NCBI GenBank assembly: GCA_024278835.1
Contig: JAJRSK010000065.1
Location: 1 to 64,000, forward strand
Source of the DNA: Campylobacterales bacterium
GTDB taxonomy: Bacteria; Campylobacterota; Campylobacteria; Campylobacterales; QNZT01
Direction: 5' to 3'
Length of the DNA stretch: 64,000 nt
Shown: positions 1,664 to 62,313 of the stretch, one piece after another
Layout: each line of letters opens with the position of its first letter
How positions within the stretch are numbered: position 1 is the stretch's first letter
Program-made: the position numbers and the translations under genes
The notes under the pieces: generated by a model
The model's input: only the letters and a program-made list of their open reading frames with translations
Told to the model about the DNA's origin: nothing
Database searches by the model: none

Positions 1664-2953
1664 CTATTGGGATTTTTCTAAAGCATCTACCTCTTCTATG
1701 CTCTGCTCTTTAACTCTATTTTTTAAAACGAGTTCCACTTCCAAGACTTTCTTTTTACTCGATTTTATCACCCTTAAAGAGTAGTTATCTGTCTTGATTT
1801 TATTATTAACCTTTGGAATTTTTCCAAAGTAACTACTGAGATAACCATTGAGATTGGTATAATCCTCTTGAGCATGATTGATATCCAAATCAAACTCTTC
1901 ATTTAAGCGCTCCACATCTATACTTGCAACGATATGATACACATCGCCTGAAACCTGCCTGATAAGCTCCTCTTCTACTTTATCAAATTCATCTACGATT
2001 TCACCGACGAGCTCCTCGATGATATCTTCAAGCGTTACAATTCCCGTAAAATCTCCATGCTCATTGACGATGACAGCCATGTGAGACTTATCCATCTTTA
2101 GTCGCTCTTGCAGGGCAAATATCTTCATCGTTTCAGGGGCATAAAAGAGTGGTCTGAGGATTTTGGATATCGCAAAGTTTTCCTCTTTTCCATGGTATTT
2201 AAAGAGGTCTTTGACATTAATCATCCCGATGATTTCATCCTCATCATTGGCGATAGGAAAACGGGTAAAGCCTGTCTTTTTGGTTATCTCTATCACCCCA
2301 GCAAATGATTCTCGTATATCAATAATCGTCGTCTCGCTTTTGGGTATCATGATAGCATAGGCTTCGATATCATCCATCTCAAAAACATTTTTGATGACAT
2401 CTCTCTCATAAGAGTTGATACTCCCCTCCTCTAGTCCTAAGGTCGCCATCTCTTTTATCTCACCTTCTGAGATAGAGTTTGTCTCATCTGGAGAGATGAA
2501 AAATCCTGAAATTTTATTGAGTATGAAGATGATAGGAGAGAGCAAAGTTGTCAGCCAGATGAGTGGAGAAGCCACAGCCATAGAGATACCAAGAGAGTGT
2601 TTCTATCCAAATATCTTGGGGATGATTTCTGCAAACATAATGATTAAAAAAGTTAATGCTGCCGAGACAATCCCAAGATATACTTCCCCGAAAATCTGCA
2701 CACCAATCACACCCACATAGATACTACCCACGATATTGATGATATTGTTTAAAACGACGATTGTGGCTATATACTTTTGTAAGTCATCTTTGATTTTTAA
2801 AAGAGAGATAGCTTTTAAGTCTTTGGGGTTTTCTCGGGCTATCTCCTTTGCTTTTGTATAGGAAACAGAGAGCAAGGCTGCTTCTGAACCCGAGACAATA
2901 GCACTTGTTACGATAATCGCAACAACCAGTAAAATAAAAAAAACAATTTCCAT
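1664..2953 (-). pseudogene. CNNM/CorC (HlyC) family membrane protein interrupted by an in-frame amber codon
   Basis: Together the two halves make a normal member of the family of DUF21 membrane domain, paired CBS domains and CorC/HlyC C-terminal domain (magnesium/cobalt efflux or hemolysin-like). The DUF21 part is residues 1 to about 175 with several hydrophobic segments, the CBS pair is about 180-325, and the C-terminal domain about 333-410. Codon 117 (2603-2605) is TAG, between EIIPKIFG and KHSLGISMAV. Frame is kept on both sides and relatives usually have E here (IGEKH-like), so a single GAG-to-TAG change explains it. Nothing else is damaged. It could be a recent pseudogene, a sequencing error or a read-through case. 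A start at 2581 would give a protein lacking most of the membrane domain. Confidence 0.85.
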
Positions 2954-2984
2954 ATAGTCTGAAGTAGCCTTTAAAATAATTTAA

Positions 2985-3108
2985 TAGAGCCCTCTGAATA
3001 ATCTCTCATCCTCAAACGGCTTCACGACGGGTACCCCAAAATTTCTCAGAAATTTTGACCCTTCCGTTGCAGAGGTTGTTCGAATGAGAGATTATTCAGA
3101 GGGCTCTA
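2985..3108. mobile_element. 124-bp palindromic element with perfect 25-bp terminal inverted repeats (MITE-like)
   Basis: The left arm 2985-3009 (starting TAGAGCCCTCTGAATAATCT) is an exact reverse complement of the right arm 3084-3108. A shorter inner inverted repeat AAAATTTC/GAAATTTT lies near the middle (about 3038-3056). Both outer ends are TA, which matches the TA target duplication of IS630/Tc1-mariner-type elements. If those are excluded the arms are 23 bp. No ORF of useful size is inside. It sits between corC and the vapBC/recG region and overlaps the end of a small ORF (3096-3158). A non-autonomous element is my inference; a long RNA hairpin is the alternative. Confidence 0.6.
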
Positions 3109-3158
3109 CCATAGTTTAGTGTATATCTTCTTAAGAGTTGCTCTAATAAACGTATCAT
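3096..3158 (-). other. 20-codon ORF, possible residue of the original gene downstream of recG
   Basis: The ATG at 3158 forms an ATGA overlap with the stop that the original recG frame would use after the 30-bp repeat copy at 3168-3197 (reading DEKILAYAKESLS-stop). The peptide begins MIRLLEQLLRRYTLNYG and then runs into the right arm of the 124-bp inverted-repeat element, where it stops. The coupled start suggests a gene once followed recG here and was truncated. It may not be expressed. I do not recognise the peptide. Confidence 0.3.
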
Positions 3159-3167
3159 GATAGACTC

Positions 3168-3832: not shown

Positions 3833-3865
3833 GTATATACTACAATATTATTTAATTTTTGTCAA
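3833..3865 (-). promoter_or_regulatory. vapBC promoter with overlapping palindrome
   Basis: On the minus strand TTGACA (3860-3865) and TAGTAT (3837-3842) are separated by exactly 17 bp. The palindrome GTATATAC (3833-3840) overlaps the -10 and could be the VapB operator. The -35 lies within the last codons of recG (ENIDKN), that is, in the part of the recG end that appears to have arrived with the insertion. Confidence 0.6.
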
Positions 3866-5663
3866 TATTTTCCTTCGCATACGCCAATATCTTCTCATCA
3901 CTTCTTGGGTCAAACCACTTAAAATGCTTTCCGCTCTGCACATCCCCTTTGAGTAAATCACCCCCTTGGCGAAACTGCAAGTCAAGTTCAGCTATCTCAA
4001 ATCCATCAAGCGTCTGGCAAAAAGCTTCTAAGCGTTCATTTTTGGGTGTTTTGGTAAAAAGATAACAGTAGCCTTTAAGACCATTTCGACTCACCCGTCC
4101 ACGCAGTTGATGAAGCGAAGCGAGTCCTAAGCGTTCAGGGGCTACCAGCACGATAGTAGAAAGATTGGGCAGGGAAACCCCTACTTCTACAAGTGTTGTA
4201 GCGATAAGGATATTGCCATCTTCTTTAAAAGCATTGAGTACATCCTCTTTCTCTTTGTCTTTTCCGTAGGTGACATACACCTTCTCAAAGTTTTTCTCCC
4301 AGTATCCGCGCGCTTGGTCGATGGATTGATAATCTATCATTTCACTCTCTTCTACCAAAGGATAGACGATGATAGTCTGTCTATCATGATGGATTTCCTC
4401 TTTGATATGTGCGATGAGTGCATCAAACGCATTTTTTGTGATGATTTTGGTATCGATATCTTTAGCAAATGGCAACTCTTTTATCTGCGAAATATCGATG
4501 ATACTCGCTTGCATCATACTCAGCGTTCTAGGAATCGGCGTAGCAGAAAACTGCAAAAAATGTGGCTGTTTCTCCCCACTACTGACTAGCTTGGCTATCA
4601 TCGCGCGTTGTTTGGTACCAAAACGGTGTTGTTCATCTATCATGATAAGGTCAGCATCAGGGAGTTCTTTATATAAAAGCGCGTGTGTCCCGATGAGAAA
4701 ATCATACTGCGTTAAATCTTCATTTTTCTTGGTTTTATTAGTAATATACCCTATCTTCAAATCTTGGGGTAAAAACTTATGTGCTTCCTCATAAATTTGA
4801 GAGGCTAGTACCGTAGTCGGTGCCATCAGTATCGCACGGCTTGGTCTTGCCATCATGACAGCAGCAAAGATGACCATCGTCTTTCCACAGCCCACATCTC
4901 CCATGATGACGCGTTTGGCAGCGATGGGTTTTTTAAAATCTTCTTTGATATCTTCGATGGCTTTTAATTGGTCGTTGGTTAGCGTAAAAGGCAAGCCTTC
5001 TATCCATGCAGTGATATCTTGTGTCAATGCTCTTTTAGCAGGGAAATCAACTTTTTTGCTAGAGAGTTTTTGCAGATGATTATAGACTTCTAAATACTTC
5101 AAAAAGAGTATCGTCTCTCGTGAAAATCCATCCGCCTCATAGGCATCGACAAAGGCAATTGTAGGGAAATGAATCCCCAATAAAATCCTATATTTCTTCT
5201 CATCAAGCCCTGCTTCTTTTAAGTTTTCTTTGGTGATATATTTTTTGATAAATTTAATGACGGTTTTGTTTTGTAGCTTGGTTTTGTACTTAGGAAGAAT
5301 GGTGTTGATAGTTTCAACGATTTGGGGCTGGACTATCTGTATGGCATCAAAATTCTCTTCTATTTTCCCATGCAAAAAGAGTCTCTCTCCCGCTTTAAAC
5401 CTATCATGATGATACTTTCTAGGGTGAAAAATGATACCATTTAAATCTCTATTGAGGTTCTCTGCATAAACGCTGAATTTAAAATACTTTGGATGGTATG
5501 AAGTCGTTTTTATCTTGGCATCTATAACATGATGCAGACCCAATTTAAGCCTCTTTGAGAGGTAGAGATTGTCATAACGATGCGGGATGATAAGGGCTAA
5601 GTCTAGCAGTGTCTCCACGCCTAGCTTTTTTAATTGTGCCTTATCCGCCTCATCGAAAATCAC
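3852..5663 (-). CDS. recG: ATP-dependent DNA helicase RecG
   Basis: Helicase that regresses stalled replication forks and processes recombination intermediates. Walker A reads MGDVGCGKT, the DExH box LIMIDEQHRFG, motif III FSATPIPRTL, and motif VI is QLRGRVSRNG. The wedge/OB domain is in the first ~230 residues. The length of 603 residues is short compared with E. coli (693) but usual for Campylobacterota, which lack part of the N-terminus. The start overlaps the upstream M16-like gene by ATGA (5660-5663). The C-terminus (ENIDKN) appears to have been supplied by the vapBC insertion. Confidence 0.96.
   Translation of the reverse strand: MIFDEADKAQLKKLGVETLLDLALIIPHRYDNLYLSKRLKLGLHHVIDAKIKTTSYHPKYFKFSVYAENLNRDLNGIIFHPRKYHHDRFKAGERLFLHGKIEENFDAIQIVQPQIVETINTILPKYKTKLQNKTVIKFIKKYITKENLKEAGLDEKKYRILLGIHFPTIAFVDAYEADGFSRETILFLKYLEVYNHLQKLSSKKVDFPAKRALTQDITAWIEGLPFTLTNDQLKAIEDIKEDFKKPIAAKRVIMGDVGCGKTMVIFAAVMMARPSRAILMAPTTVLASQIYEEAHKFLPQDLKIGYITNKTKKNEDLTQYDFLIGTHALLYKELPDADLIMIDEQHRFGTKQRAMIAKLVSSGEKQPHFLQFSATPIPRTLSMMQASIIDISQIKELPFAKDIDTKIITKNAFDALIAHIKEEIHHDRQTIIVYPLVEESEMIDYQSIDQARGYWEKNFEKVYVTYGKDKEKEDVLNAFKEDGNILIATTLVEVGVSLPNLSTIVLVAPERLGLASLHQLRGRVSRNGLKGYCYLFTKTPKNERLEAFCQTLDGFEIAELDLQFRQGGDLLKGDVQSGKHFKWFDPRSDEKILAYAKENIDKN
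3871..3900. repeat. 30-bp direct repeat, copy 2 (within recG 3' end)
   Basis: Exact copy of 3168-3197, 703 bp away. It encodes DEKILAYAKE in the present recG. The two copies bracket the vapBC unit, as expected for an insertion that duplicates or replaces the end of its target gene. Confidence 0.85.
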
Positions 5664-6946
5664 TTTTTTGTTACGACCGAAAATGAGAGTTTGTTTATCT
5701 CACCATGTTTCTTGATGAAATCATTTAAATCATCTAAAGAGAGAGATTGAATCTTTTTAAGCTCTTCTTTAGCGTGTCCGAGTTTAAAACCGTTGTAATA
5801 CTCTTGGAAACTTTTTGAGAGTCTTTGGGAGAGTGTCTCATTTCGCAAGGGTTCACTTCCTAGTAAAAACTTTTTCGCTTGCTCTAGTTCATCAGCACGC
5901 ACACCATTTTTGACAAAATCTGCGATAATATCTCTGACTAATTTTATCGCCTCATCTTTACTCTCAAGCTTCGTCTGTAGATGCCCTGAAAAATCACTAT
6001 GAGACTTCGCAAAGTTTACCCGTGCATAAGCAGAATACGCCAATCCTCGCTTCACCCTCACCTCTTCCATGAGCCGTGAACCAAATCCTCCAGCCCCCAA
6101 GATAAATGCTGCCACTTTTGCTTTATAGACATCTTTATCCTTAGCAGACAAATCAAAAGGTGCACCAAAATAGACAAATGCCTGTTCTGTCTCTTTATAG
6201 ACTTCTATATCCTTGGCTTTATCTGTTGCTTTAAATGAAGTAAGTGCTGTTTTCTCACCCTTTTTAAGTACAGATAAGAGCTCTTTGGCATAGAGCTTTG
6301 CTTCCTCTTTTTCCATATCGCCACCAGCGATGATAATCACCTGACTTCTCACTAGATGCTTCTTTATAAAGGTTTGGATATCCTCAAGCTTGAGTGCGCC
6401 TATACTCTCCATAGTCCCCCCAGAAGCTTGACCTATAGGTGTATCATGATAGAGGTATTTTTTCAAGTTTAGTGCTGCTACATAATCAAAGTTTGACTCA
6501 TTACGCTTGATAGCCGCTTGCATCAGTATCTTTATCTTTTTGACACTCTCCTGCGTTACATTTGGATCTTGTATCAGTGAAGCTAGCAGTTTAACAGCCT
6601 CAGCAAATTTCTCTTTAAGTGCAGAAATTTCAAATACAAATGTCTCCGTTCCCGCATGTGCAGAGAGATGTATCGCACTATCTTCTAATGCCGTTGCAAA
6701 ACCAACAGAACCTAGCTTTTTAGTCCCCTCGTTAAGGATTTTTGCGGTAAATCTTGCGATACCTGGATGTTTCTTATCTTCGATACTTCCAGCATTTTGA
6801 AAAACCACTTGCATCGACACTATCGGTAGTGTTTTATCCACCTCTATAACCATCGCTGTCTTTTCACCCTCAATCAATAACTCTTCTATACTTGCACTCA
6901 ATAATACTCCTTGTAACACTATCATGATAAATAAAATTCTTTTCAT
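5660..6946 (-). CDS. M16 (insulinase) family protein, non-catalytic type, exported
   Basis: M16 peptidase-fold protein of 428 residues with a signal peptide (MKRILFIMIVLQGVLLSAS). Two M16 domains are visible: N-terminal about 25-210 and C-terminal about 215-420, with the R/Y segment VRVKRGLAYSAYARV in the second. The position of the HxxEH zinc motif reads GIARFTAKILNEGT, so all three metal or catalytic residues are replaced. It resembles the non-catalytic partner subunits known in this family. No catalytic M16 partner is next to it in the window. It is coupled to recG downstream and abuts mqnC upstream (6946). A periplasmic location is inferred. Confidence 0.85.
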   Translation of the reverse strand: MKRILFIMIVLQGVLLSASIEELLIEGEKTAMVIEVDKTLPIVSMQVVFQNAGSIEDKKHPGIARFTAKILNEGTKKLGSVGFATALEDSAIHLSAHAGTETFVFEISALKEKFAEAVKLLASLIQDPNVTQESVKKIKILMQAAIKRNESNFDYVAALNLKKYLYHDTPIGQASGGTMESIGALKLEDIQTFIKKHLVRSQVIIIAGGDMEKEEAKLYAKELLSVLKKGEKTALTSFKATDKAKDIEVYKETEQAFVYFGAPFDLSAKDKDVYKAKVAAFILGAGGFGSRLMEEVRVKRGLAYSAYARVNFAKSHSDFSGHLQTKLESKDEAIKLVRDIIADFVKNGVRADELEQAKKFLLGSEPLRNETLSQRLSKSFQEYYNGFKLGHAKEELKKIQSLSLDDLNDFIKKHGEINKLSFSVVTKK

Positions 6947-10178: not shown

Positions 10179-11948
10179 TTAAAGTTTATGCTCAAACTCA
10201 GGCACAATTTTTTGAAGTGCTTTTATCTTTTCTTGACTCTTTAAAAGAAACTCAATATCATCATTTAACTTCTCTATAGCATATTTCGTGGCATTCGTCA
10301 CGAATATTGAATTATATATCGTCTTTTTATCATTTTCATTGAGTAGCAACTCTTCATAAAGCTTTTCACCAGAGCGAAGTCCTGTAAATTTGATACCCAA
10401 ATCCTCTTTACCATAAAGCTTGAGCATCTTTTTTGCCAAATCAACTATCTTGATAGGCGCACCCATATCAAGGACAAAGAGTTCATTATCTTTGGCGATA
10501 GCGGCCGCTTGAAGAACCAATTGACAAGCTTCAGGGATAAGCATAAAGTAGCGTGTGATATCAGGATGCGTCACGGAAAGAGGCATATTATGCTCTATCT
10601 GATACTTAAACTTTGGTATCACAGAGCCCGAAGAGCCCAAGACATTGCCAAAGCGCACAGCCGTGATAAGGGTATCCCCACTCTGCACATTTTGCGCATA
10701 AAGTTCACACACACGCTTGGTAGCCCCCATGACATTGGTTGGGCGTACGGCCTTGTCTGTTGAGATAAAGACAAATCGCTCTACTCCATACTTGATAGCC
10801 AAATCAATCGTATTTTTCGTCCCGATGATATTGTTTAAGACCGCACCTTCGATATTCTCTTCACAGAGAGGCACATGTTTATAAGCTGCCGCATGAATCA
10901 CTATCTCGGGGCGATGCTTTGCAAAACTTTTTTCAAGCAGTTTTTTATCTACCATCGACTGCATCAAAGTCTCTGTGGGGGCGCGTCTGACTTGCTCATT
11001 TATCTGATAGAGATTGTACTCACTGTGATCGAGCAAAATAAGCTTTTTTGCGCCAAACCTATCACACTGGCGCACTATTTCAGAGCCTATGCTCCCCCCA
11101 GCACCCGTTATCATGATACTCTTATCTTTGATAAATGATTCAATCACTCCAGTATCTAAATCCTTTGGCTTTCGCGCTAACAAATCCTCGATAGAGATAT
11201 TTTGCAGTTTTTCATGCTTATCACCCAAAAGTTTGGAGCGTTTGATATTGGTGACACCTAACTTACTTAAGCTTTCAAACAGATTATCCAAGGCTTGAGG
11301 TTCATACTCTTTGGTGATAATGGCTGCGCTTATGTTTTCACTTTTGATAAGACGCTCCATCGCTTCCATGGGATGGACTTTGATGTTGGAGAGGTAGGAA
11401 TTGACGATGGATTTATCATCATCGATGATGGCACTAGGCGTAAAGTCTATATTGCCTGCTTTGGCGGAGCCGATAATCTGCATCGCTTTTTGATTGGCTC
11501 CGATGATGAGTGTGGGCTTCTCCTCGGATGTGACTGGTAGTGTCATAAAGAGGCGCTTAGAGAGACGAAGCCCCACGATAAAGAGTAAAGAGAGCAGAAA
11601 GTCTATCATGATAACCGTACGCGGAAACTGAGCCGTATAGACAAAGACAATATAAAGCACAAAGAAAAAATAACTCAAAAGCAAAGCATAGAGTATCTTT
11701 TTGACATCGGAGAGAACGAAATAGCGCCATGTGATACGATACACCCCAAAGAGATAAAACATCACAATCTTTATCATGATAAGAGGCAATACAAGATGCC
11801 CAAAAGAGTAAATATGCTCTGGCGGGATGTTCAGATTAAAACGCAAAAGATAAGCAGCTAAAAAGGAGAAATAAAATATCAATCCATCTGCTATCATGAA
11901 AAAAAGTGTCCGCTTCCACGGTGCATTTTCAAAAATATTTTTAAACAT
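10179..11948 (-). CDS. pglF: UDP-N-acetylglucosamine 4,6-dehydratase (PglF/WbpM/CapD family), membrane-bound
   Basis: Converts UDP-GlcNAc to a UDP-4-keto-6-deoxy sugar, the first step to bacillosamine-type N-glycan sugars. Four hydrophobic segments lie in the first ~140 residues, then a CoA-binding-like domain, then the SDR domain with ITGAGGSIGSEI near residue 280. The active-site segment FISTDKAVRPTNVMGATKR has Met in place of Tyr, the mark of this family. I use the ATG at 11948, seven codons after the first in-frame start, because AAAAGG precedes it and it overlaps the upstream gene by only 8 bp. It sits in one operon with the WecA-like gene and pglB. Confidence 0.9.
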   Translation of the reverse strand: MFKNIFENAPWKRTLFFMIADGLIFYFSFLAAYLLRFNLNIPPEHIYSFGHLVLPLIMIKIVMFYLFGVYRITWRYFVLSDVKKILYALLLSYFFFVLYIVFVYTAQFPRTVIMIDFLLSLLFIVGLRLSKRLFMTLPVTSEEKPTLIIGANQKAMQIIGSAKAGNIDFTPSAIIDDDKSIVNSYLSNIKVHPMEAMERLIKSENISAAIITKEYEPQALDNLFESLSKLGVTNIKRSKLLGDKHEKLQNISIEDLLARKPKDLDTGVIESFIKDKSIMITGAGGSIGSEIVRQCDRFGAKKLILLDHSEYNLYQINEQVRRAPTETLMQSMVDKKLLEKSFAKHRPEIVIHAAAYKHVPLCEENIEGAVLNNIIGTKNTIDLAIKYGVERFVFISTDKAVRPTNVMGATKRVCELYAQNVQSGDTLITAVRFGNVLGSSGSVIPKFKYQIEHNMPLSVTHPDITRYFMLIPEACQLVLQAAAIAKDNELFVLDMGAPIKIVDLAKKMLKLYGKEDLGIKFTGLRSGEKLYEELLLNENDKKTIYNSIFVTNATKYAIEKLNDDIEFLLKSQEKIKALQKIVPEFEHKL

Positions 11949-12873
11949 CAAAACCTTTTCTCTTCTCAATCCAAGCTAAAATCGCCCATAATCCTAAAGT
12001 ATAACACAAAAGAGATGTAAGCAAAAAGCCCTTCTCTTTGGCAAAGTACAAAAAGAGCAGGCAAAGTAGATTGAATCCCATCGCTAAAAGCACCACTTTT
12101 TGATGCGAAAAACCACTCTGTACCAAGCGCTGAAAAGCATGTTTTTTGTGAGCGATGGACAACTTTTCTCCACGCAAAAATCGTCTAAAAAGTGTCACCG
12201 TTGCATCAACGATAAAGAGTCCCAAAAGCACAAACCAGATGATGACATCAGCACTATCATGATAGTGATACAATGCCATCACTCCAAAGAAAAAACCCAA
12301 AAATGTACTCCCTACATCTCCCATAAAGATAGAGGCTTTGTGCCAGTTAAAGAGCAAAAATCCAGCCACAGAGAGTGCCATCATGATAAAGAGTCTATCA
12401 TGATAAAAAAGAGAGGCACCCAGCGCAACTACTATCGCTTCACTTCCCGCATAACCATCGATACCATCTAAAAAATTGTACAGATTGACAAGCCATATCA
12501 TCGCAAGTATCACCACCGCTGTGGCATACCAAGGCATCTGCTTTAGCAGATCCAAAAAATATAACGCCATTATGATAGAGACAAACTGTGCGAAAAGACG
12601 AAGAGCGGGAGAGAGTGGTCTATAATCATCCACAAAACTGACTAGCACCAAAATCCCGCCAGAAAGTAAGGCATAAAAAAGCGAACTCTCTATCTCCCCC
12701 CTAAAAAAGAGATACCCCAAGCCCAAATAAAAAGAGAGCACGATTGCCATACCACCACCCGTAGGTGTCGCCACACTATGTGCACTCCTCTCGTTTGGAT
12801 GATCCAATAGTGCCACTTTTTTTACCAAAAGCGTTATCATGATAGAGGTAAAAAAGAGTAAAAGTTCTATCAT
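11941..12873 (-). CDS. WecA/MraY-like undecaprenyl-phosphate sugar-1-phosphate transferase
   Basis: Polytopic phosphoglycosyltransferase of glycosyltransferase family 4 (Pfam sense) that starts a lipid-linked glycan by moving a HexNAc-1-phosphate to undecaprenyl phosphate. Motifs seen are VSFVDDYRPLS (DDxx), NLYNFLDGIDGYAG, FMGDVGSTFLGFF and the cytoplasmic AHKKHAFQRL. About ten membrane segments are spread over 310 residues. Its start overlaps the pglB stop by 4 bp, and pglF follows. It may replace the PglC-type monotopic enzyme used by Campylobacter. The exact sugar is not determined from sequence. Confidence 0.9.
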   Translation of the reverse strand: MIELLLFFTSIMITLLVKKVALLDHPNERSAHSVATPTGGGMAIVLSFYLGLGYLFFRGEIESSLFYALLSGGILVLVSFVDDYRPLSPALRLFAQFVSIIMALYFLDLLKQMPWYATAVVILAMIWLVNLYNFLDGIDGYAGSEAIVVALGASLFYHDRLFIMMALSVAGFLLFNWHKASIFMGDVGSTFLGFFFGVMALYHYHDSADVIIWFVLLGLFIVDATVTLFRRFLRGEKLSIAHKKHAFQRLVQSGFSHQKVVLLAMGFNLLCLLFLYFAKEKGFLLTSLLCYTLGLWAILAWIEKRKGFDV

Positions 12874-25034: not shown

Positions 25035-25112
25035 GATTTTCCTAATAGCCGTTTAATTGTATTTGTTTTGGGAGGATTAACTTCCATATTGGAAATTTTA
25101 TAAAATTATCTA

Positions 25113-26270: not shown

Positions 26271-26274
26271 TAGC

Positions 26275-27162: not shown

Positions 27163-27182
27163 TTAATTTCCTTATTGCTAAT

Positions 27183-28909: not shown

Positions 28910-28943
28910 GGTTGCACCTCCATTTTAGGTATTATAGCAGATT

Positions 28944-30375: not shown

Positions 30376-30384
30376 ATCTTCTCC

Positions 30385-37566: not shown

Positions 37567-37671
37567 TTATAATCAAGCCATAGTATACACTTTTTTTGTA
37601 AATAAGATGTTAATAATGATAAATTTTATCCACAACTAGACTCAAAGTTGTAGTTTGGTAAACTTTTTATC

Positions 37672-45869: not shown

Positions 45870-46093
45870 TACTAGGAAGAAAAGAAGATGAGACTATCAT
45901 GATAGGCAATGATATCACGATCTCTGTCAAAAGCATCACCAAAGGAATGGTAAAGATAGGCATAGATGCCCCTAAAGATATCATGATATTAAGAGGTGAA
46001 CTAAAAAATAGAATCATAGAGTCAAACCTCAAGGCAAGCAATCAAGCCAGTAGTGCACAACTAAAAGATATCTCAAAGCTCTTAAAAAAATGA
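45863..46093 (+). CDS. csrA: Carbon storage regulator CsrA
   Basis: RNA-binding dimer that controls translation by binding GGA sites near ribosome sites. MLILGRKEDETIMIGNDITISV at the N-terminus and R44 (in ILRGEL) are present, the key binding residues. Length 76 is normal. It overlaps truB and ispE at both ends. Two TATCATGATA copies fall inside it, coding IMI in both cases. Confidence 0.95.
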   Translation: MLILGRKEDETIMIGNDITISVKSITKGMVKIGIDAPKDIMILRGELKNRIIESNLKASNQASSAQLKDISKLLKK

Positions 46094-49513: not shown

Positions 49514-49594
49514 ATTGTTTATCCTTTAATTTTATTATTTATTGTCATATCATGATAGTAGCTTTTGACGGTTCACTATCATGATAAAAGTTGA

Positions 49595-49640: not shown

Positions 49641-50984
49641 TTATCTAGGTATATTTGACCCTTGCTGACTCATAAGGTTTTGCAAATCTTGCATCCCTTT
49701 TTTGCCTGAAAACTTCTTCGCCATTTTTGCTGCATTTTTAAACTGCTTTAAAAAACGATTCACTTCCATTTGGGAGAGTCCTGCCCCCTGAGCAATCCTC
49801 TTTTTACGAGAATTATTTAGTAAATCAGGCTTTTCACGCTCTTTTTTGGTCATTGAACTTATCATAGCTTTTATCGATTTGATTTCTGCTGAATTTTCCA
49901 AGTCCATATCGCCTAGCTTTGATGCCATACCTGACATCCCTGGTATCATCCCCATCAGAGATTTCATAGAACCTAGCTTCTTCATACTCTCAAGTTGCGC
50001 TAGAAAATCATTAAAGTTAAATTGCCCTTTTTTAATTTTACTCGTCATCTTTCGGGCTTCTTTTTCATCGATGATATCTGCTGTCTTTTCAGCTAAACCT
50101 TCTAAATCACCCTCATCCATCAGTCTACTTGCAATTCTCTCAGGTACAAATAGTTCTAAATCAGCAACTTTTTCACCTACACCGATGAAACGAAGTGGTA
50201 TATGTAGTTGTGAAGCAAGCCCAAGTGCTACACCACCTTTACTGTCACCATCATATTTACTGAGGATAACACCAGAGATTTGCATCTTTTCATTAAATGT
50301 GCCTGCTGAGCGGATCGCATCTTGTCCAGTCATAGAGTCTGCGACATAAAATACTTCATCTGGCTCTATCGTTGTTTTAATGTTTGAGAGTTCACTCATC
50401 AATTCTTCATCGATGGCCAATCGTCCCGCAGTATCAACTATGAGTACATCATAAAGTCCTTCTTCTGCTTTTTGCTTTGCCAACTTTGCTATCATGATAG
50501 GATCATTCAGTGACTCATCAGCATAAAGGTCTATCTCATTTTGGCTACAAAGTTGTTTGAGTTGTTCTACCGCGGCCAAACGCTGTAAATCACAAGCAGC
50601 CACCAAAACTTTTTTCTTCTTTTGTTTTAAATGTACTGCTAGTTTAACCGTAGTTGTTGTTTTACCAGAACCTTGAAGTCCACACATTAAGACTTTTGTA
50701 GGTGGTTTAGAGGCATATATAAACCCTACTTTGCCACCTTCAACTGTGAGTAAGTCCATAAGATTACTTTTAAGAGCAAGTAAAAAACTCTCTTTACCTA
50801 TGCCCTTCGCTTTAACATCACTCTCTATCTCTTTGAGTAATTCTTTGACTATTTTGTGGTGTACATCTGCTTTTAAAAGTGATTTTTTGAGCGTATCAAG
50901 CGCTTTTTTTAGAGAGTTTTCATCATCAGCAAAACGCATTTTATTGATAGCCGTTTTAAACGAGTCAGTTAAAGCTTCAAACAC
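49641..50984 (-). CDS. ffh: Signal recognition particle protein Ffh (SRP54)
   Basis: GTPase and signal-sequence binding subunit of SRP. G1 MCGLQGSGKTTTTVKLA, DTAGRLAIDEELMSEL as G3, SKYDGDSKGG as the G4/insert motif (usual TKLDGDAKGG), then a Met-rich M domain (MKKLGSMKSLMGMIPGMSGM). Length 447. The rpsP operon follows after a hairpin. Confidence 0.97.
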   Translation of the reverse strand: MFEALTDSFKTAINKMRFADDENSLKKALDTLKKSLLKADVHHKIVKELLKEIESDVKAKGIGKESFLLALKSNLMDLLTVEGGKVGFIYASKPPTKVLMCGLQGSGKTTTTVKLAVHLKQKKKKVLVAACDLQRLAAVEQLKQLCSQNEIDLYADESLNDPIMIAKLAKQKAEEGLYDVLIVDTAGRLAIDEELMSELSNIKTTIEPDEVFYVADSMTGQDAIRSAGTFNEKMQISGVILSKYDGDSKGGVALGLASQLHIPLRFIGVGEKVADLELFVPERIASRLMDEGDLEGLAEKTADIIDEKEARKMTSKIKKGQFNFNDFLAQLESMKKLGSMKSLMGMIPGMSGMASKLGDMDLENSAEIKSIKAMISSMTKKEREKPDLLNNSRKKRIAQGAGLSQMEVNRFLKQFKNAAKMAKKFSGKKGMQDLQNLMSQQGSNIPR

Positions 50985-51136
50985 ATGTATCCTTTATAGT
51001 CATTAAAAAAGTGGGATATTCTACAAAAACAATGCTTTATATAATATAAGAGCAGGAAATTTTTAATAATTTTTTTGCTTTACCCAAAATTTACACCTAA
51101 ATTGCTACAATATACGAAAGAATACAAAAGGTTATC

Positions 51137-51751
51137 ATGATATATAGACAAGTAATGCTTACACTTATGATTGTGCTTCTCTTTTTTTCTGCATGTTCTT
51201 ATAGAATAACACAAACGTCACTCGATGATGGTGATTTAACTGCCTTTACAGCAGGAGATTATGAGATTGCACAAGTAGCAAAAGAGTTATCTAAAAGTCT
51301 CTCTGTCCCCCTGCAAGAAAAAAATTATGATACCAACCAAAGTACACCTTTGGATGAAGTCACACTCATCAAAGTAGATGGTTCACTCTGTCTCATACTC
51401 AATGGAAAGATTTTTCAAAAAAATAAAGCTATTCCTATAGAAAATGCTCTCTATATCGTCCAAGAAATAACAGATATCATCAAAAAATATCCCCATATCA
51501 TTATCCAAGTCACAGGACATACAGATAGCCAAGAAGAGACTAAAAAACATCAAGATCTCTCTGATAATCGTGCCATCAGTATCGCTGAAATCCTCTATAA
51601 ACTAGATGCCAAAAATGAAACCTATGCCAAGGGTTGCGCGGATAAAAAGCCACTTTTTTCTGACACAAGCAAAGATGATGCTTTATCCAATGCCCGCGTA
51701 GAAATCTACCTCTATGCCAACAAAGAAAAGATGGTAGATCACTGCAAATAA
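51137..51751 (+). CDS. OmpA-family lipoprotein (a)
   Basis: A 204-residue lipoprotein: signal MLTLMIVLLFFSAC with a lipobox ending in Cys. The OmpA domain is in the last ~115 residues (IIIQVTGHTDSQEETKKHQDLSDNRAISIAEIL), which binds peptidoglycan. The ATG falls in a TATCATGATA copy with AAAAGG before it. It is followed by a similar but larger OmpA lipoprotein and shares its C-terminal pattern (RVEIYLYANKE...DHCK). Confidence 0.88.
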   Translation: MIYRQVMLTLMIVLLFFSACSYRITQTSLDDGDLTAFTAGDYEIAQVAKELSKSLSVPLQEKNYDTNQSTPLDEVTLIKVDGSLCLILNGKIFQKNKAIPIENALYIVQEITDIIKKYPHIIIQVTGHTDSQEETKKHQDLSDNRAISIAEILYKLDAKNETYAKGCADKKPLFSDTSKDDALSNARVEIYLYANKEKMVDHCK

Positions 51752-55032: not shown

Positions 55033-57372
55033 TTACATCGAAAGTGCCGCCACCAATGGTATCACATACCCTGCCACAGCCAGGGGAATTGTAATCAAAT
55101 TATACAACAATGAGATACTTAAATTTTGCTTGATATTGGTATAAGTTTTTTGACTTAATTTCTGTGCAAGAGCCAAAGAAGTGATACTATCATCTAAAAG
55201 CACCACATCACTCACTTCCACAGAGATGTCAGCTCCCGAACCCATAGCAATAGCGATATCACTTTTTGAGAGTGCCAAGGCATCATTGATACCATCTCCC
55301 ACCATAATGACTACTTTACCTCTATCATGATAGCTATCCACCGCTGCTGCTTTATCTTCAGGAAAGAGTGAATATTTAAACTTTTTTATACCCACTTCAT
55401 CCGCTATTTTTCGAGCAACCTTCTCATGGTCACCCGTTAACATCACTATCTCAACACCTCGCCCTGCTATCTCCGCTAAGGCTTCTTTTGCACCTTCTTT
55501 AATTTTATCTTCCAAGGCAAACATATCCACGATATCCCCATCTATAGCAAAAATAAATAATGACCCATCTGACTTAGTTTCTATCTTGATATCATCAAAC
55601 AAAGAGAGATTGCCGCCTTTGAGTTCTCTACCTTGATAGTATGCACGTAAGCCCTTAGCTTGCAGATGCTTTACACTTTCTAATTCTAACATTTCCAGCT
55701 TATCATGCTGACTCTCTAAATAAGTTGCAATCCCTTTTGATATAGGATGTGAAGAGCTTTTTACCAATGCATAAAGGAGGTTGATATCATACTCTTTTTT
55801 ATTATCATGATAGACAACTTCTGGTTTGCCCTCAGTTATCGTACCCGTCTTATCAAGTAACAGCACATCCGCCTTTGCCATCGTCTCTAAAAAACTAGCT
55901 TCTTTGAACAATATACCTTTTTTTGCGCCTACAGAAAGCCCTATCAATGTTGCCATCGGTGTTGCCAGCCCCAACGCACAAGGACAAGCGATAACAATAA
56001 CAGAAATTCCCACAATCAACGCATGTTCAAAATCTCCCTTGAAAAAATACCATCCCAAAAATGTTGCTAGTGCGATAAGTAAAATCCCAGAGGAAAAATA
56101 GCCAGAAATTTCATTGGCTAGTTTTTCAATACGTGGTTTTTTTGTCAGTGAGTTTTCAAGTAAAGAGACGATAGTAGAGAGCGTCGAATCCCCATAAAGT
56201 TTCGTTGCACGATAACGCACCACAGAGTCCAGCGATATCGCACCAGAGGTGAGTAAATCATCTTTTTTCTTATATATTGGGCGTGATTCACCCGTGAGAC
56301 TTGCCTCATCAAAAGAGCCATCTCCACTTATCATGATACCATCGATAACGATTTTATCACCTGCTTTAACTTCGATAATATCTCCTACTTCTACCTCTTC
56401 TACCCCCACAATCACTTTTTCATTTCCACAAATCTTTGTTACTTCTGTAGGTAAAGAAGAGGTGATGGTATCGAGTGTATCGACCGCTTTTTTCTTACTG
56501 AGTACCTCCAAGTACTTACCGACAAAAACAAAAGTGATTATCATGACAACAGAATCAAAATAAGTCTCTCCATGACCACTGATTAACACATATATAGAGT
56601 AGATATAGGCTAAAGACGCACCCGTAGCAACCAATGAGTCCATATTTACAAAATGGTTTTTAAGACCAAAGTAGGCACCTTTAAAGTAAATCCATCCCGT
56701 ATAAAAAAGTACTGGTGTTGCCAAGACAAACTCCGCCACCTGGATGATAAACTTGATATCTTCTCGCATTCCTGTAAAATAACCGCCATATTGTGCGATA
56801 GCAAGCCACATGATATTCATCGTACCAAATACACCGACTAAAAGCCGCATATAATAATCTTTTCTACTGGCATTAGCTTTTTGCTCTTGCAAAGAAGCAT
56901 CGTAAGGATAAGCATTGTAACCGATAGATTGGATTTTCACGATAATATCTGAGAGTTTTAACACACTTGGATCCCAGACGATTTTAGCTTTATGGTTGGT
57001 ATAATTTATCTCTGCTTCAATGATACCGTCAGTTTTATAAAGTACTTTTTCATTGAGCCAGACGCAAGCAGAACAGTGTATGCCTTCGATTATGAGTGAT
57101 ATCTCATGTAAGCCATCCACCTCTTTGATATACTTTTTAGTAAAACCATCATGGTCATACTTCTCCAAATCAGAAGAAATTTCTGCAGCAGGGTTGAGCT
57201 TTATATCGCCAACTTTATCATAAAAATCATCTAGCCCCTCGGAGGAGAGAAGATGATAAACACCTTGACAGCCTTTACAGCAAAAATACTTTTCACTCTC
57301 ACCTATCATTTCAGAGATAAGCATCTCTTTGGGAAATTCTAAATGGCAATGATCACAGGGGATTTTATTCAT
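55033..57372 (-). CDS. ccoI: Copper-translocating P-type ATPase CcoI/FixI
   Basis: P1B ATPase that supplies Cu to cbb3 oxidase. N-terminal Cys-rich segment CDHCHLEFPKEM... FCCKGCQGVYHLL, then HMA domain with GIHCSACVWLNEKVL. The membrane motif is VIACPCALGLATPMATLIGL and the phosphorylation site LLDKTGTITEGKPEV. GDGINDALALSKSDIAIAMGSG is the hinge. Length 779. The association with ccoS supports CcoI over generic CopA. Confidence 0.94.
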   Translation of the reverse strand: MNKIPCDHCHLEFPKEMLISEMIGESEKYFCCKGCQGVYHLLSSEGLDDFYDKVGDIKLNPAAEISSDLEKYDHDGFTKKYIKEVDGLHEISLIIEGIHCSACVWLNEKVLYKTDGIIEAEINYTNHKAKIVWDPSVLKLSDIIVKIQSIGYNAYPYDASLQEQKANASRKDYYMRLLVGVFGTMNIMWLAIAQYGGYFTGMREDIKFIIQVAEFVLATPVLFYTGWIYFKGAYFGLKNHFVNMDSLVATGASLAYIYSIYVLISGHGETYFDSVVMIITFVFVGKYLEVLSKKKAVDTLDTITSSLPTEVTKICGNEKVIVGVEEVEVGDIIEVKAGDKIVIDGIMISGDGSFDEASLTGESRPIYKKKDDLLTSGAISLDSVVRYRATKLYGDSTLSTIVSLLENSLTKKPRIEKLANEISGYFSSGILLIALATFLGWYFFKGDFEHALIVGISVIVIACPCALGLATPMATLIGLSVGAKKGILFKEASFLETMAKADVLLLDKTGTITEGKPEVVYHDNKKEYDINLLYALVKSSSHPISKGIATYLESQHDKLEMLELESVKHLQAKGLRAYYQGRELKGGNLSLFDDIKIETKSDGSLFIFAIDGDIVDMFALEDKIKEGAKEALAEIAGRGVEIVMLTGDHEKVARKIADEVGIKKFKYSLFPEDKAAAVDSYHDRGKVVIMVGDGINDALALSKSDIAIAMGSGADISVEVSDVVLLDDSITSLALAQKLSQKTYTNIKQNLSISLLYNLITIPLAVAGYVIPLVAALSM

Positions 57373-57506: not shown

Positions 57507-58913
57507 ATGAGAAATAGTTTAACAAAGAGTATCATAATAGTACTCTTTAGTGTGGTATTAGCTGGCTGTGGGAGCAGGGAACCCCTTACTGAAGATATTA
57601 GTGCTGAAATAACTATGCAAGGTGTAGAGGTAGACATTAGTGAAGATGTTGCTGTTGGTACGCTTTTGTCTCGAACTATCACTATCAATAACATTACTGT
57701 GCCACTTACAGATGTCGCCATTGTGCTAACTGGAACAGGCAGTGAAGACTTTAATGTCACCTTGGAGAGTGCTGGTGTTGCAAACACTTATATTGGAAAG
57801 GTCGTACTTTTACATTCACTTGAAGGCAAAGGTGGTGCATTTTATGAGCTCAATGCTACTGCTACGGCAGATACTCAGAGTATTGGACCAGTTTTGGTGA
57901 AAATACATATCATCGATGTGCCTAAGCAGACTATTGTGGAGATGTGTGATGACGTCAATGGCTCAGAACCTTGGATAACTGATGGTACAGCTTTAGGGAC
58001 AAAACCTCTGGCAAATCTCAATCCAGAAGGAAGTAGCCGGCTTTATAGTGTACCTGTACGCGTAGGTTCTATGCTCTATTTTCTCTTAGATGATGGTATC
58101 AGTGGTACAAATTTATGGCAAAGTGATGGTACAACGGCGGGAACAGAAAAAGTGAAAGATTTCGATACAACAAGTATCAATGAACGTGCTAACGATCTCA
58201 TCCTCCTTGGTGAGACACTTTTTTTCTCTGTTTCGGGACATCAACTCTGGCGTAGTGATGGTTCTGAAGCAGGAACACAGATGATAAAAGATATCAATGC
58301 CAGCGAAATAAGTCATTTTACCAGCTATCATGATAAGCTCTACTTCATCAAGATAGATAGAGCAGAAAGTATCGGTCTCGCAACAAAAACCAGAATCGCT
58401 CCGATACTTGGTGCCGCTGCACTCTGGGAAAGTGATGGTATCGCTGAGGGAACAAAACTTGTCATGACATTGCCTGAGGGTTTAAATAAACCAAGAGGTC
58501 TTAGCGTCGTGGGGGATACGCTCTATATGGCTATACCAGATTATGGTGAGAATGCTCTTGAGATAAAAAAGATTGACATGACACAAGCTAGCTTAAGCTT
58601 GGAAGATGATGATACTTTAGACAATACAGGGCTTAGATGGATGGGCGTCTATAAAGATAAATTACATTTAGTCACATTTCACTCAGGTATTTGGGTAAAA
58701 GAAGCTGGTACCTATACCAAACTCCCTCTTGATATAGACTTTGACGTTGGTAATATACAAGTGTTTAATGGTCTTTTCTTATTTAACAGTTTTAGATCAG
58801 GAGAAGTGGAAGATACGAACAGATATATGCAACTATGGGATAGTGATACCACAGAAGAAGGTTCACACATCATCAAAGAGAACCCATGCACTATGGAATC
58901 AGAATCTATGTGA
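57507..58913 (+). CDS. Lipoprotein with cadherin-like and ELWxxDGT-type repeats
   Basis: A 468-residue lipoprotein: signal ending VVLAGCGSR, then a beta-sandwich (cadherin-like, residues ~30-150) with VEVDISEDVAVGTLL-type pattern, then repeats of the kind W(I/Q/R)(T/S)DGT..GT (EPWITDGTALGTKPL, NLWQSDGTTAGTEKV, QLWRSDGSEAGTQMI, ALWESDGIAEGTKLV). These are the ELWxxDGT/hyalin-like units seen in surface proteins and form a beta-propeller-like array. AAGGAGG is ideally placed before the ATG. Function unknown, probably outer-membrane or cell-surface binding. Confidence 0.8.
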   Translation: MRNSLTKSIIIVLFSVVLAGCGSREPLTEDISAEITMQGVEVDISEDVAVGTLLSRTITINNITVPLTDVAIVLTGTGSEDFNVTLESAGVANTYIGKVVLLHSLEGKGGAFYELNATATADTQSIGPVLVKIHIIDVPKQTIVEMCDDVNGSEPWITDGTALGTKPLANLNPEGSSRLYSVPVRVGSMLYFLLDDGISGTNLWQSDGTTAGTEKVKDFDTTSINERANDLILLGETLFFSVSGHQLWRSDGSEAGTQMIKDINASEISHFTSYHDKLYFIKIDRAESIGLATKTRIAPILGAAALWESDGIAEGTKLVMTLPEGLNKPRGLSVVGDTLYMAIPDYGENALEIKKIDMTQASLSLEDDDTLDNTGLRWMGVYKDKLHLVTFHSGIWVKEAGTYTKLPLDIDFDVGNIQVFNGLFLFNSFRSGEVEDTNRYMQLWDSDTTEEGSHIIKENPCTMESESM

Positions 58914-59113: not shown

Positions 59114-60292
59114 TTAAACACCTTCTGAACGTAGTACTTTGGTTTTACCAACCATCAGTTCTATGGTCATCCATGCCCGTTTCCAAACGGATTCTTGTCT
59201 ATACTCCAAGTCATACTTTTTACAGATATCCTTGACGATAGGTTGCATCTGTTGGTAGAAACTATGTGGCATGTTAGGAAAGAGATGATGCTCTATCTGA
59301 TAGTTTAAAAACCCCTGCCCAAAGTCTATCAAATCCGTTCCTGTGTTATAGTTGACTGATCCCATGATTTGCCTGAGGTAAAACTCGCCTTGAGACTTGT
59401 GTGGCTTTGAAAACTGATAGATATCTTCTGCTGAGTGATTAGGCACTATCACGATAAAAGAGTGGACATTTGCCACGACTTCACTAAGCAAAAGGATAAT
59501 AAATGCATTCGTAACACCAACCCAACCAAAAGGAAACCAAAAAACTAAAGGCAATAGAACAAACTTTACCAAAGGGTAAGGAAGATAATAATTTTTCCAA
59601 AGCTCCAAGCCATTCTTTGTAAGTGGGCTAAATTCATATACATCTAACTCTGGCTCTTTTCTCTTGCGTCTCTCTTTATTTTCTAAGATACGAAGTGTGT
59701 TGGGTGCATAATAGGTAAATTTCCACGTCATTGCCAAAAGAGCAATCAGCGTGTATCTCAAAAACATAGGGGTATTTGACTCTGTAAGCCACTTCATATT
59801 TCGCTCAACATTGTCGGGATCATCATCTTCACCTAGATGATAGTGATGCATGATATTGTGCTCAAACTCCCAAGCTTCTGGCTTAATCCAATCTAACCAA
59901 TGCCAATAGCGACTCCAACCTCTTGCATACCCTGCTTTTGTATATTCGTAAGGGATATTGGGGACTTTATCATACGCACCATGGAGGATAGGATGGGTGA
60001 CATTTGCCCATCTTGCTGTGTTTCCTATCCCAATGAGCAGCGCAGCCACCAAAGCTAATCCCCAAAAAGCAAAACCACTCATATCCCAAAAACTTACAAT
60101 ACCAATAAGCACAATCCCAGCAAAAACAGCACCAGACCCCCAGCGCTCTAGTTTTAGTAAATGTTGAAAATCATCCCAATTTGGCGCAGGAATTGTATCT
60201 TTGATAGCATCTATATCTTTTTGAAGTGCATCTTGATCGATATCTTCATAGCGTGTGTAGCTCACAGAGCCCATTTTTTGTGTCATGCCCAT
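59114..60292 (-). CDS. Membrane fatty acid desaturase
   Basis: Di-iron acyl desaturase of 392 residues. Three His boxes: HPILH (~95-100), HNIMHHYH (~145) and QIEHHLFP (~330). Membrane segments lie between them (SFWDMSGFAFWGLALVAALLIG and others). It would introduce double bonds into acyl chains of lipids. It is close to the DesA-type group. The start ATG at 60292 is followed by a second possible start at residue 3. Confidence 0.9.
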   Translation of the reverse strand: MGMTQKMGSVSYTRYEDIDQDALQKDIDAIKDTIPAPNWDDFQHLLKLERWGSGAVFAGIVLIGIVSFWDMSGFAFWGLALVAALLIGIGNTARWANVTHPILHGAYDKVPNIPYEYTKAGYARGWSRYWHWLDWIKPEAWEFEHNIMHHYHLGEDDDPDNVERNMKWLTESNTPMFLRYTLIALLAMTWKFTYYAPNTLRILENKERRKRKEPELDVYEFSPLTKNGLELWKNYYLPYPLVKFVLLPLVFWFPFGWVGVTNAFIILLLSEVVANVHSFIVIVPNHSAEDIYQFSKPHKSQGEFYLRQIMGSVNYNTGTDLIDFGQGFLNYQIEHHLFPNMPHSFYQQMQPIVKDICKKYDLEYRQESVWKRAWMTIELMVGKTKVLRSEGV

Positions 60293-60339
60293 CCTTTAAA
60301 AATTTTGAATGGGCGCATTATAGTATAATTATATGAAAG

Positions 60340-62313
60340 TTATAAGCCTTCTATTTTTAATATTACATTTTTAAGGTTTTTATCGATGGCAAAACAATTA
60401 TCTATCTTGCAGGCTAAAAAATTTTCATCTGCACTTGGCTTTAACAGTATATAAGGATAATGGATAGCATTCAAGGTTTCTTTCTGTTTTGACAAATTTT
60501 GTTTGCTAGATTTGATAACTACTGGGGAGAGTAAACTCTGCAGATAAGTTGTTAGTCCTGAAGGATACTGACTCGGTACAGATTTTAAAGCAGCAAGTTG
60601 CGTATCTAGATTATTTTGGGCAAAAGCATACAGTTTTTGATTGTCAGTCAAAAGCGCTATCTTAAGAAGATTTTCTATCATGATAGCCAAGGAGGAAGCA
60701 TATGAAGCGTCATAAAACTCAGCCTTAGCTTTGAAATCATCATCAGACATATACCAAACACTGTTTTTGTAAAATTTTGCAACCGCTTTATCACTCAAAG
60801 TTTTCGCTAAAGTGAGATACTTATCTTCAAAGTCCACCGCATACCCTTCCATCAATGCTGAAATTAAAAAAGCATAATCTTCTAAGTAACCTTTTACTTT
60901 TGCTGCTTTTGAGATGATGATTTGGTGATAAAGTTCTCCATCTCGATAGAGATTTTCAATCAGTACATCCAAAGAGTGTAAAGCCTCTTTTTCATACACT
61001 TTGTCTACATATTTTGCTGCCTTAAAAAGCCCAACAAGATACATCCCATTCCATGAGGTTTGCACTTTATAGTCGATAAAAGGATAATTTTTCTTTTGGC
61101 GATTGGCACGAAGGATGGCTTTGCCTTTTTCTAAATCTTTTGGCGCATTCATCCCCGAGAGATAAGGATTGGTCTGTTTGTGTTCAAAGTTACCCTCTGG
61201 ATAGATAGAAAAATAATCCAAAATATCCTTAGAAACCCCAGCACTTTTGAGATCCTTCATACTATCATGATAGTCAAAAACAAAGTATTTTCCCTCTTTT
61301 CCATCACTGTCCGCGTCACTGGCAGAGTAAAACATCCCCTCTTTAAAAAAGCGCTCGTTGATGTTTTGTATCGTCTCTTTTACAACTGTTTTAAAACGTG
61401 GCTCTTTGGTGAGTGCATAGGCATTGGCATAGGCTGAAAGTAATTCCGCATTGGTATAAAGCATCTTTTCAAAATGCGGTATCAACCACATCTCATCTAC
61501 ACTATAGCGGTAAAATCCACCCTCTATCTGATCATAAATCCCACCTTTGCTCATCGCTATCAAGGTATCAATTGACATCTGCAGGGCTTTTTTATCATCA
61601 GAGATACGATAAATATCTAAAAGTGTATCCAAGGTTGAAGCATGCGGGAACTTCGGTGAAGTTCCAATACCCTTATTTTTAGTATCAAAATTTGCTTCTA
61701 TCTCTTGCACAAAATGCTTCGTTATGGAGAGATCCAAGCTTACTTTTTGATTGGCTGTGGCTGCGCCCATCCTGGCGACTGCCTCCTCGATGGAAGTAGC
61801 AGACTTTAACACCTCTTCTTTTTTATTTTTATAAGCATCCACCAAAACCTTCATCATTCCTTTTAGACCAGCACGTCCAAATTTATCATCAGAAGGCATA
61901 TACGTCGCAGAAAAGAAAACACGTCTATCTGGTGTCATCACAATAGTCAGTGGCCATCCTCCCCCTCGTCTATTCATCAAAGCATAGATATCTTGATAGT
62001 GTCTATCGATATGTGGATATTCTTCTCTATCTACTTTAATAGCGATAAAATCCTTATTGAGCACCTTTGCGACAGAGTCATTTTCAAAGCTCTCCTTCTC
62101 CATCACATGACACCAATGACAGGTACTGTACCCAATAGATAAAAAAATGAGTTTATCCTCTTTTTTAGCCTTCTCAAAAGCTTCATCACACCAAGGATAC
62201 CAGTTCACTGGGTTATGTGCATGCTGTTGTAAATAGGGAGAATCTTCGTGCTTGAGTCTGTTTGCATCTGCATCTATCATGATAAGAAGTCCTAATAATA
62301 ATATTTTCAGCAT
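60340..62313 (-). CDS. YyaL/SSP411-type thioredoxin-domain protein (DUF255)
   Basis: A 657-residue protein: N-terminal thioredoxin-like domain with [22 protein letters not shown] and [16 protein letters not shown] (CHWC site), followed by an (alpha/alpha)6 glycosidase-like barrel ([30 protein letters not shown]). It is related to human SPATA20. The first residues form a possible signal sequence ([17 protein letters not shown]), so export is possible; the family is normally cytoplasmic. Activity is not established in the family. Confidence 0.9.

Follow-up and report, generated by a model that had tools for sequence, protein, structure and literature searches.

HIP1 has been known since 1995, and repeats of its kind, the highly iterated palindromes (HIPs), are best known from cyanobacteria; to our knowledge, no function has been agreed for HIP1. 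The Campylobacter jejuni genome frequently carries the motif of CtsM, which is short and is not a long word iterated to excess. Uptake of DNA by C. jejuni requires this motif in its CtsM-methylated form, according to the available part of PMC8468864, which prints it as RATTY. In Helicobacter pylori, iceA1 adjoins hpyIM, a pair likened to the NlaIII system in the excerpt of PMC13340068, and HpyIM is described as CATG-specific in that of PMC4687069 (as also in a cited title). Here we analyze a palindrome, TATCATGATA, that recurs throughout a stretch of 64,000 nt from a Campylobacterales bacterium ("the window"; contig C1:1-64000 of G000, a draft genome of 2,507,854 bp in 77 contigs). It is a real and strong variant of the known HIP kind, and it lies outside the phylum for which the open-access literature documents HIPs: no title or abstract opening listed in searches of that literature describes a HIP outside cyanobacteria, and a search for TATCATGATA brought up nothing related.

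In the window, TATCATGATA occurs exactly 40 times, over positions 2345-62284. Among 100 dinucleotide shuffles of the window the average is 0.23 and the highest count 3, and none reaches 40; the roughly 40 copies against 0.2 expected that a sequence-only reading had reported are therefore borne out. TATCATGATA is also the top 10-mer of the window, with an order-3 Markov expectation of 1.05. Genome-wide, G000 has 1549 copies (about 620 per Mb, one per 1.6 kb) against 7 for a control word with the letters reversed, and a sample of 682 kb, which includes the window and makes up 27% of the genome, has 463 against 4.0 expected from an order-2 Markov model (~115-fold). The repeat is thus neither confined to the window nor near expectation, and the genome signature proposed earlier holds. 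Within the sample, the first base outside the palindrome is G at a frequency of 0.60 and A at 0.25, and the flanks further out are nearly random. Because of this preference we write the consensus as the 12-bp cTATCATGATAg; the 12-mer CTATCATGATAG occurs 583 times in G000. Among one-base variants of TATCATGATA in G000, T1C is enriched 12.2-fold and A2G 10.8-fold, with the remaining substitutions at 0.8- to 2.7-fold, so that deviations concentrate at the two outer positions. The nearly random flanks beyond +1, the use of two reading frames, the size of the Markov excess and the low count of the reversed control refute, for G000, an artefact of base or codon composition or a dispersed mobile repeat; nothing was found in its favor, and we give it practically no credence. 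The two frames and the near-random flanks beyond +1 likewise uphold the earlier view that codon bias is no explanation. Eighteen viral stretches carry a close pair of palindromes, each with 2-4 copies and none of them motif-dense, and phage origin or carriage of the palindrome was rejected on these grounds.

Placement was determined in the 682 kb sample against 664 crudely called genes. Fully inside genes are 343 copies, 203 of them read as I-M-I and 140 as Y-H-D; 72 lie between genes and 48 across gene boundaries. Forty of the boundary copies fall exactly on a start codon and 18 include a stop codon, some doing both. The third frame is unused, since it would place TGA in frame. Density is 0.57 per kb within genes versus 0.89 per kb for wholly noncoding copies. 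In the window, judged against open reading frames (ORFs) of at least 100 aa, 20 copies are in the I-M-I frame, 10 in the Y-H-D frame, five on start codons (one doubling as Y-H-D of the upstream gene) and five between called ORFs, which confirms that copies occur in several frames, between genes and across start codons, as had been noted. Spacing is near random (coefficient of variation 1.10; null 0.91-1.09), except that 18 pairs lie 20-40 bp apart where 6.4 are expected. Pairs no more than 45 bp apart number 25, of which 11 are intergenic, and for all 11 an RNA hairpin is predicted (-13.5 to -21.6 kcal/mol). Any two copies of a palindrome can pair with each other, yet several of the stems extend beyond the repeats.

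Conservation was assessed in a 93 kb alignment of G000 with its genus-mate G001, at 74% identity, from which alignments shorter than 400 bp or overlapping better ones had been dropped; the G001 sample makes up 17% of its genome. Of 54 G000 copies (12 of them in gaps), 23 are identical in G001, compared with 7.7% of control 10-mers, and in the reverse direction 23 of 37 G001 copies are identical in G000. Just 4 of the 54 are one mismatch away in G001, versus 20% of control words. The palindrome is therefore conserved between the two genus members beyond background. In the outgroup comparison, proteins shorter than 90 aa were left aside, as were homologues below 35% identity (50% for G001 in the exact-copy count) or below half the top score. 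The exact palindrome is present in at least one outgroup homologue at 1 of 84 sites. Residue identity to the outgroups is 0.295 at these sites, and residues of the same types at other positions of these alignments reach 0.513 (p <0.00005); identity to G001 (44 sites) is 0.604 versus 0.697 (p 0.064). For example, TruB has T-I-M-I at the palindrome where outgroups have D-E-K-I, K-D-E-I or Q-K-E-I, and Ffh has P-I-M-I where others have P-I-K-I or P-L-K-I; in both proteins the palindrome positions vary among outgroups too. Furthermore, I-M-I occurs 208 times in the sampled proteome against 30 expected (7-fold), and 200 palindromes lie in its frame; for Y-H-D the count is 160 against 10 (16-fold), and the palindromes in its frame number 139. 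In G056, from another family, I-M-I is at expectation (27 versus 25). These data show that the palindrome has reshaped proteins, altering the peptide content of the proteome, and that it is under strong directional drive.

The excess of palindrome-encoded peptides also bears on a proposal made by Elhai for HIP1, that the repeat is a by-product of methyl-directed mismatch repair, in which repair near methylated sites would ratchet neighboring sequence toward the palindrome. One-base deviations at outer positions, as reported for HIP1 in the part of PMC4390886 consulted, would agree with such a process. However, a ratchet of this type would hardly raise I-M-I 7-fold and Y-H-D 16-fold, and the model needs MutL, for which a search (MutS was not included) came up empty in both G000 and G001 at E 0.001. 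All 14 control genomes were matched by MutL, 11 of them over cut-off and G056, G012 and G019 below cut-off only. The many-fold rise of the encoded peptides speaks against a by-product of MutL-dependent repair and in favor of selection or drive, and the proposal, weakened in this way, appears very improbable. A DNA uptake sequence in the Haemophilus and Neisseria sense, where the competence machinery would read the bare sequence and methylation would be irrelevant, would be consistent with one copy per 1.6 kb, with the intergenic hairpin pairs, with conservation between species and with the effect on proteins. Yet neither H. influenzae nor N. gonorrhoeae has a palindromic uptake sequence (PMC1939737, in the section available), and C. 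jejuni, from the same phylum as G000, discriminates by methylation, as stated in the same part of PMC8468864; we regard this explanation as quite unlikely.

The distribution of the palindrome was surveyed in 398 genomes of the order, G000 included, drawn from a larger group. The closest named matches to Ffh are from Campylobacterota, the best being the metagenome-assembled genome "Sulfurospirillum sp. isolate bin10080" (87%). Counts of TATCATGATA are 1009 in G001, 166 in G056, 88 in G006, 66 in G021 and 49 in G019, with most genomes at 0-20; the palindrome is near genus-specific, in a Campylobacterota genus close to Sulfurospirillum. In G056 the core TCATGA is doubled (425 versus 210 expected) and the flanks are relaxed, TATCATGA occurring 109.5 times versus 20.7 expected, per strand. 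Across the 398 genomes, TCATGA counts show more high outliers that have few copies of TATCATGATA. The iterated palindrome of G016 is TTCATGAA (34 versus 1.8 expected in 80 kb); in small samples of its congeners, G011 has 7 TTCATGAA versus 0.7 expected and G008 has AG half-sites at 22-fold, over 10 sites. These three genomes (loci L268-L278) belong to a sister genus in the same family as G000, and TTCATGAA is clear in G016 and indicated in its congeners. G039 has 20 TCATGA versus 5 expected in 16 kb. Taken together, TTCATGAA and the relaxed-flank cases show that palindromes with a TCATGA core form a family whose flanks change. The HIP1-like character assigned to the repeat from sequence alone is thus supported: it extends through the genome, is accepted in either permitted frame, is under selection or drive, and is graded and variant in relatives. 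G224 was considered as a further HIP genome, which was not borne out (TCATGA 15 versus 11.3, with a repeat-like run of TCATGAGC words); its loci L282-L284 hold TCATGAGC words and a TAAACGCAG-type repeat, and the words probably belong to a dispersed repeat element and not to a palindrome signature. Two other words are scarce. The genomes of genus g47 have almost no AGTACT (5-22 copies each in 11 of 15) and no such shortage of TCATGA, as if shaped by a GTAC or AGTACT restriction system. GATC stands at 0.18 of Markov expectation in the G000 sample, 0.62 in G001 and 0.38 in G056; the low value in G000 suggests avoidance of a GATC-cutting system.

Candidate methyltransferases were sought with four Pfam families; one pair was run against 22 genomes from the family of G000, the other pair against 12 selected genomes. 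G000 has a solitary D12 adenine methyltransferase gene outside the window, at contig C77:12916-13923 (PF02086, E 8e-52). D12 is over cut-off in both genus members, and the G000 and G001 copies are 78% identical, open throughout and contain the DPPY motif, which is present in 30 of 30 sequences. PF00145 was rejected as the writer, being present in G000 and absent from G001; the matches of PF01555 in G000 were all below threshold, and G001 had none. PF02384 has matches in both genomes, but these look type I-like, and the sites of type I methyltransferases are not palindromes; it was likewise rejected. PF02384 aside, D12 is the sole one of the four families over cut-off in both genus members, and it is the best candidate for the writer. 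It is also found in G016, G008, G006, G056 and G328, and in two pieces in G011. A transposase-like ORF, judged from its translation, lies near the solitary D12 gene of G001 (L121:3284-3799).

The gene preceding D12 in G075 matches the Pfam family ICEA (E 5e-121), and ICEA homologues stand beside 6 of 30 D12 loci, five at no less than 58% identity (query included) and that of G287 at 23%. No ICEA homologue was seen in the stretches read around D12 of G000, G001, G016, G008, G056 and G328, including 20 kb around the G000 gene; within these stretches, D12 is solitary in this genus. Because some homologues adjoin IceA/NlaIII-type endonuclease genes, we infer that D12 is of the HpyIM/M.NlaIII kind and would methylate CATG, the center of the palindrome. 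PDB searches with D12 and with IceA returned nothing useful. D12 homologues also occur among plasmid records, where the closest (61%) is on a Sulfurospirillum plasmid and is named just DNA adenine methylase; IceA had one weak match there. A methyltransferase partner, for instance a TCATGA-recognizing enzyme, had been suggested in the sequence-only reading. A solitary candidate does exist; its putative site is CATG, at the center of TCATGA, and the partnership and its function stay conjectural.

These observations provide the basis for a model that we hold to be plausible while rating it somewhat short of probable. The palindrome would be an iterated HIP whose core is methylated by the solitary D12, an N6-adenine methyltransferase that would mark CATG at its center. 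A reader of methylated CATG in the palindrome context would then favor, or preferentially recombine, palindrome-bearing DNA. The likeliest such reader would be self-DNA recognition in natural transformation, comparable to that of the CtsM-methylated motif of C. jejuni. Copies born by mutation would be driven up, through biased transformation or direct selection, wherever protein constraint allows, be it in intergenic DNA, as the arms of hairpins, across the starts of genes or at protein positions that vary. We are more doubtful of the specific version in which the CATG methyltransferase writes, the competence machinery reads, and biased transformation drives the palindrome at the expense of protein sequence. 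On that same doubtful version, the HIPs of cyanobacteria and Campylobacterota would be convergent, a solitary methyltransferase plus a reader making a molecular drive. In H. pylori, CATG methylation at start codons affects transcripts (PMC7379913, in the available part), to which we link the 40 copies on start codons in the G000 sample.

The relation between D12 and TCATGA across genomes is consistent with a CATG site in one respect. TCATGA densities were computed with rounded genome sizes and are raw with respect to base composition; 190 of the 398 genomes entered a one-sided test and 153 of these, from 13 genera, a two-sided test. D12 was counted absent in G050 (two internal stops), in G030 (split copy) and for all homologues below 55% identity. 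D12 at 55% identity or more is carried by 8 of the 10 TCATGA-richest of the 190 genomes, versus 79 of the 398 overall. In the two-sided test, carriers deviate from the median TCATGA density of their genus more than shuffled labels do (p 0.00005, and 0.0003-0.0035 with genera left out). A carrier is the genome lowest in TCATGA in g4, g9, g18, g25, g44, g50, g55 and g59, and the highest in g4, g5, g21, g33 and g62. Deviation both ways fits a CATG site, which would be avoided where the endonuclease acts and be free to accumulate elsewhere. Furthermore, a tree of 30 D12 sequences places eight orphans of family f1 and G056 on one side (support 79/96). Constraining G056 to join its congener G293 was marginally rejected (p 0.046), and uniting all f1 sequences including G006 was rejected (p 7e-7). 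The nine genomes on the f1 and G056 side have 283-1236 TCATGA per Mb and the other 21 have 7-850, values uncorrected for kinship. No IceA gene was seen in the stretches read at the nine D12 loci of that side.

Several results weigh against the methylated-mark model. D12 is insufficient: apart from the two genus members, all of its 79 carriers have 166 palindromes or fewer, mostly fewer than 40. The one-sided within-genus test for a gain of TCATGA with D12 fails (p 0.98, or 0.54 without four genera) because carriers deviate both ways, and D12 presence as a simple cause of the palindrome is rejected by it. We devised the two-sided test and the clade comparison with the data already in view, D12 homologues of 47-54% identity being counted absent in the test, and a support of 79/96 for the clade joining G056 to the f1 orphans is not decisive. 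In G006, an IceA homologue adjoins D12 and yet the genome is TCATGA-rich (850 per Mb). TCATGA is raised in G039 and in three genomes of g4, namely G004, G018 and G020 (completeness 90, 100, 87 and 84%, respectively), none of which gave a D12 hit, so that D12 is perhaps not necessary for raised TCATGA. Given these five exceptions, D12 is at best one part out of two. When the palindrome is masked, the G000 sample has CATG at 0.77 of expectation, TCATGA at 1.17 and other NCATGN words at 0.43-0.91; CATG as the entire signal is ruled out by its low value outside the palindrome. We know of no methyltransferase that reads palindromes of 10-12 bp. Since the recognized word exceeds the usual methyltransferase site and CATG elsewhere is unenriched, a second reader is needed. 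The low residue identity at palindromes may partly reflect settling where proteins tolerate variation, a doubt from which the census of I-M-I and Y-H-D is free. Finally, in the samples of G000 (27%) and G001 (17%), neither regular expressions for ComEC and DprA nor tblastn with the ComEC of G056 (PF03772, present in that genome) gave a match, a result that decides nothing as no genome-wide search was made.

The absence of a simple correlation with the methyltransferase would also suit an abundant dimeric DNA-binding protein, nucleoid-associated or chromosome-organizing, that binds the 12-bp palindrome, the CATG methyltransferase being incidental. The length and dyad symmetry of the repeat would accommodate a dimer, and the preference for noncoding DNA and start codons agrees with such a protein. 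Weighing against it are some 1550 sites, mostly genic and near-randomly spaced, the sharp restriction to one genus, and the TCATGA core with other flanks in D12-carrying relatives, which a single conserved protein would not predict; we judge this explanation unlikely.

The copies in the window can be followed one by one. Those in the I-M-I frame include 2345-2354 in ORF 1664-2581(-), 4638-4647 in ORF 3852-5663(-), 6920-6929 in ORF 5660-6946(-), and 11109-11118, 11604-11613 and 11772-11781 in ORF 10179-11969(-), followed by 12835-12844, 31620-31629 (GMP/PMI gene), 33809-33818 (a 12-mer, in a PgmG-like ORF), 34037-34046, 56329-56338, 60676-60685 (12-mer) and 62275-62284. In the same frame, 38052-38061 is intact in G001, 37869-37878 (12-mer) and 41172-41181 are absent there, and 40674-40683 corresponds to V-M-I in 8 of the 8 homologues shown, G001 included. 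The Y-H-D frame is used at 6442-6451, also in ORF 5660-6946(-), 12255-12264 (12-mer CTATCATGATAG), 12396-12405, 19371-19380 (glycosyltransferase-like ORF), 34642-34651, 40009-40018 (pabB-like ORF; intact in G001), 55323-55332 (12-mer, heavy-metal P-type ATPase), 55803-55812, 58326-58335 and 61263-61272 (12-mer). Start codons are covered at 32958-32967 for ORF 31542-32963(-), at 34325-34334 for ORF 32960-34330(-), at 37668-37677 for ORF 37672-38313(+), intact in G001, and at 51133-51142 for ORF 51137-51751(+). The copy at 46795-46804 serves as Y-H-D of one ORF and as the start codon of the next, and is intact in G001. Three copies lie in named genes. The clpA copy (35320-35329) is intact in G001 and exact in 0 of 6 outgroup homologues (1-5 mismatches); the truB copy (45332-45341, 12-mer) is intact in G001, and seven outgroups have 4-8 mismatches and different residues; and at the ffh copy (50490-50499, 12-mer) the 8 homologues shown have K, T, S or I in place of the Met. 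Between called ORFs lie 3153-3162, 45895-45904 (12-mer) and 45979-45988, and two intergenic copies, 49548-49557 and 49577-49586, form the left and right arms of one predicted hairpin (-16.9 kcal/mol as RNA). The largest gap in the window, 19381-31619, is 12.2 kb of surface-glycan genes with zero copies; a palindrome-free gap of this extent (19380-31620) exceeds the 95% point of random placement and stays below the 99% point. The locus is probably acquired DNA, and a large gap would be expected there if it was.

Like HIP1 (GCGATCGC) and the alternate cyanobacterial HIPs, the repeat of G000 is a short, grossly over-represented palindrome, found in genes in more than one frame and between them, with an internal sequence that would match the site of a solitary methyltransferase. 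It also shares with them the deviations at outer positions and the alternate palindromes in relatives, as far as PMC4390886 is available. It differs from HIP1 in belonging to an AT-rich member of the Campylobacterota, in a core of CATG and not GATC, in its 10-12 bp and in its sequence, which is not GCGATCGC. Its density of about 620 per Mb compares with 1000-2000 per Mb for HIPs (PMC4390886, same part), and the strong effect on protein sequence measured here and the lack of a MutL match set it further apart from them. With the DUS of Neisseria and the USS of Haemophilus it has in common density, genic spread, intergenic hairpin pairs and conservation between species; unlike them, it is palindromic and apparently centered on a methyltransferase site. 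The CtsM motif of C. jejuni comes from the same phylum; as the site of a methyltransferase it labels the cell's own DNA for uptake, which by analogy may be so here, and the G000 palindrome is another sequence. D12 resembles HpyIM and M.NlaIII in its class, in DPPY and in the IceA/NlaIII-type endonuclease genes that adjoin some homologues; it differs in that no endonuclease is beside it in G000 or G001 within the stretches read. In the single phylum from which HIP1 is known, the effects of drift, repair and methylation are difficult to tell apart. The present HIP family is unrelated and has another core; with its several flank variants, its candidate writer and the lack of a MutL match, it amounts to a natural experiment of independent origin, and if the palindrome is indeed read as a methylated mark, it would link HIPs to the methylation-dependent DNA uptake of Campylobacter.

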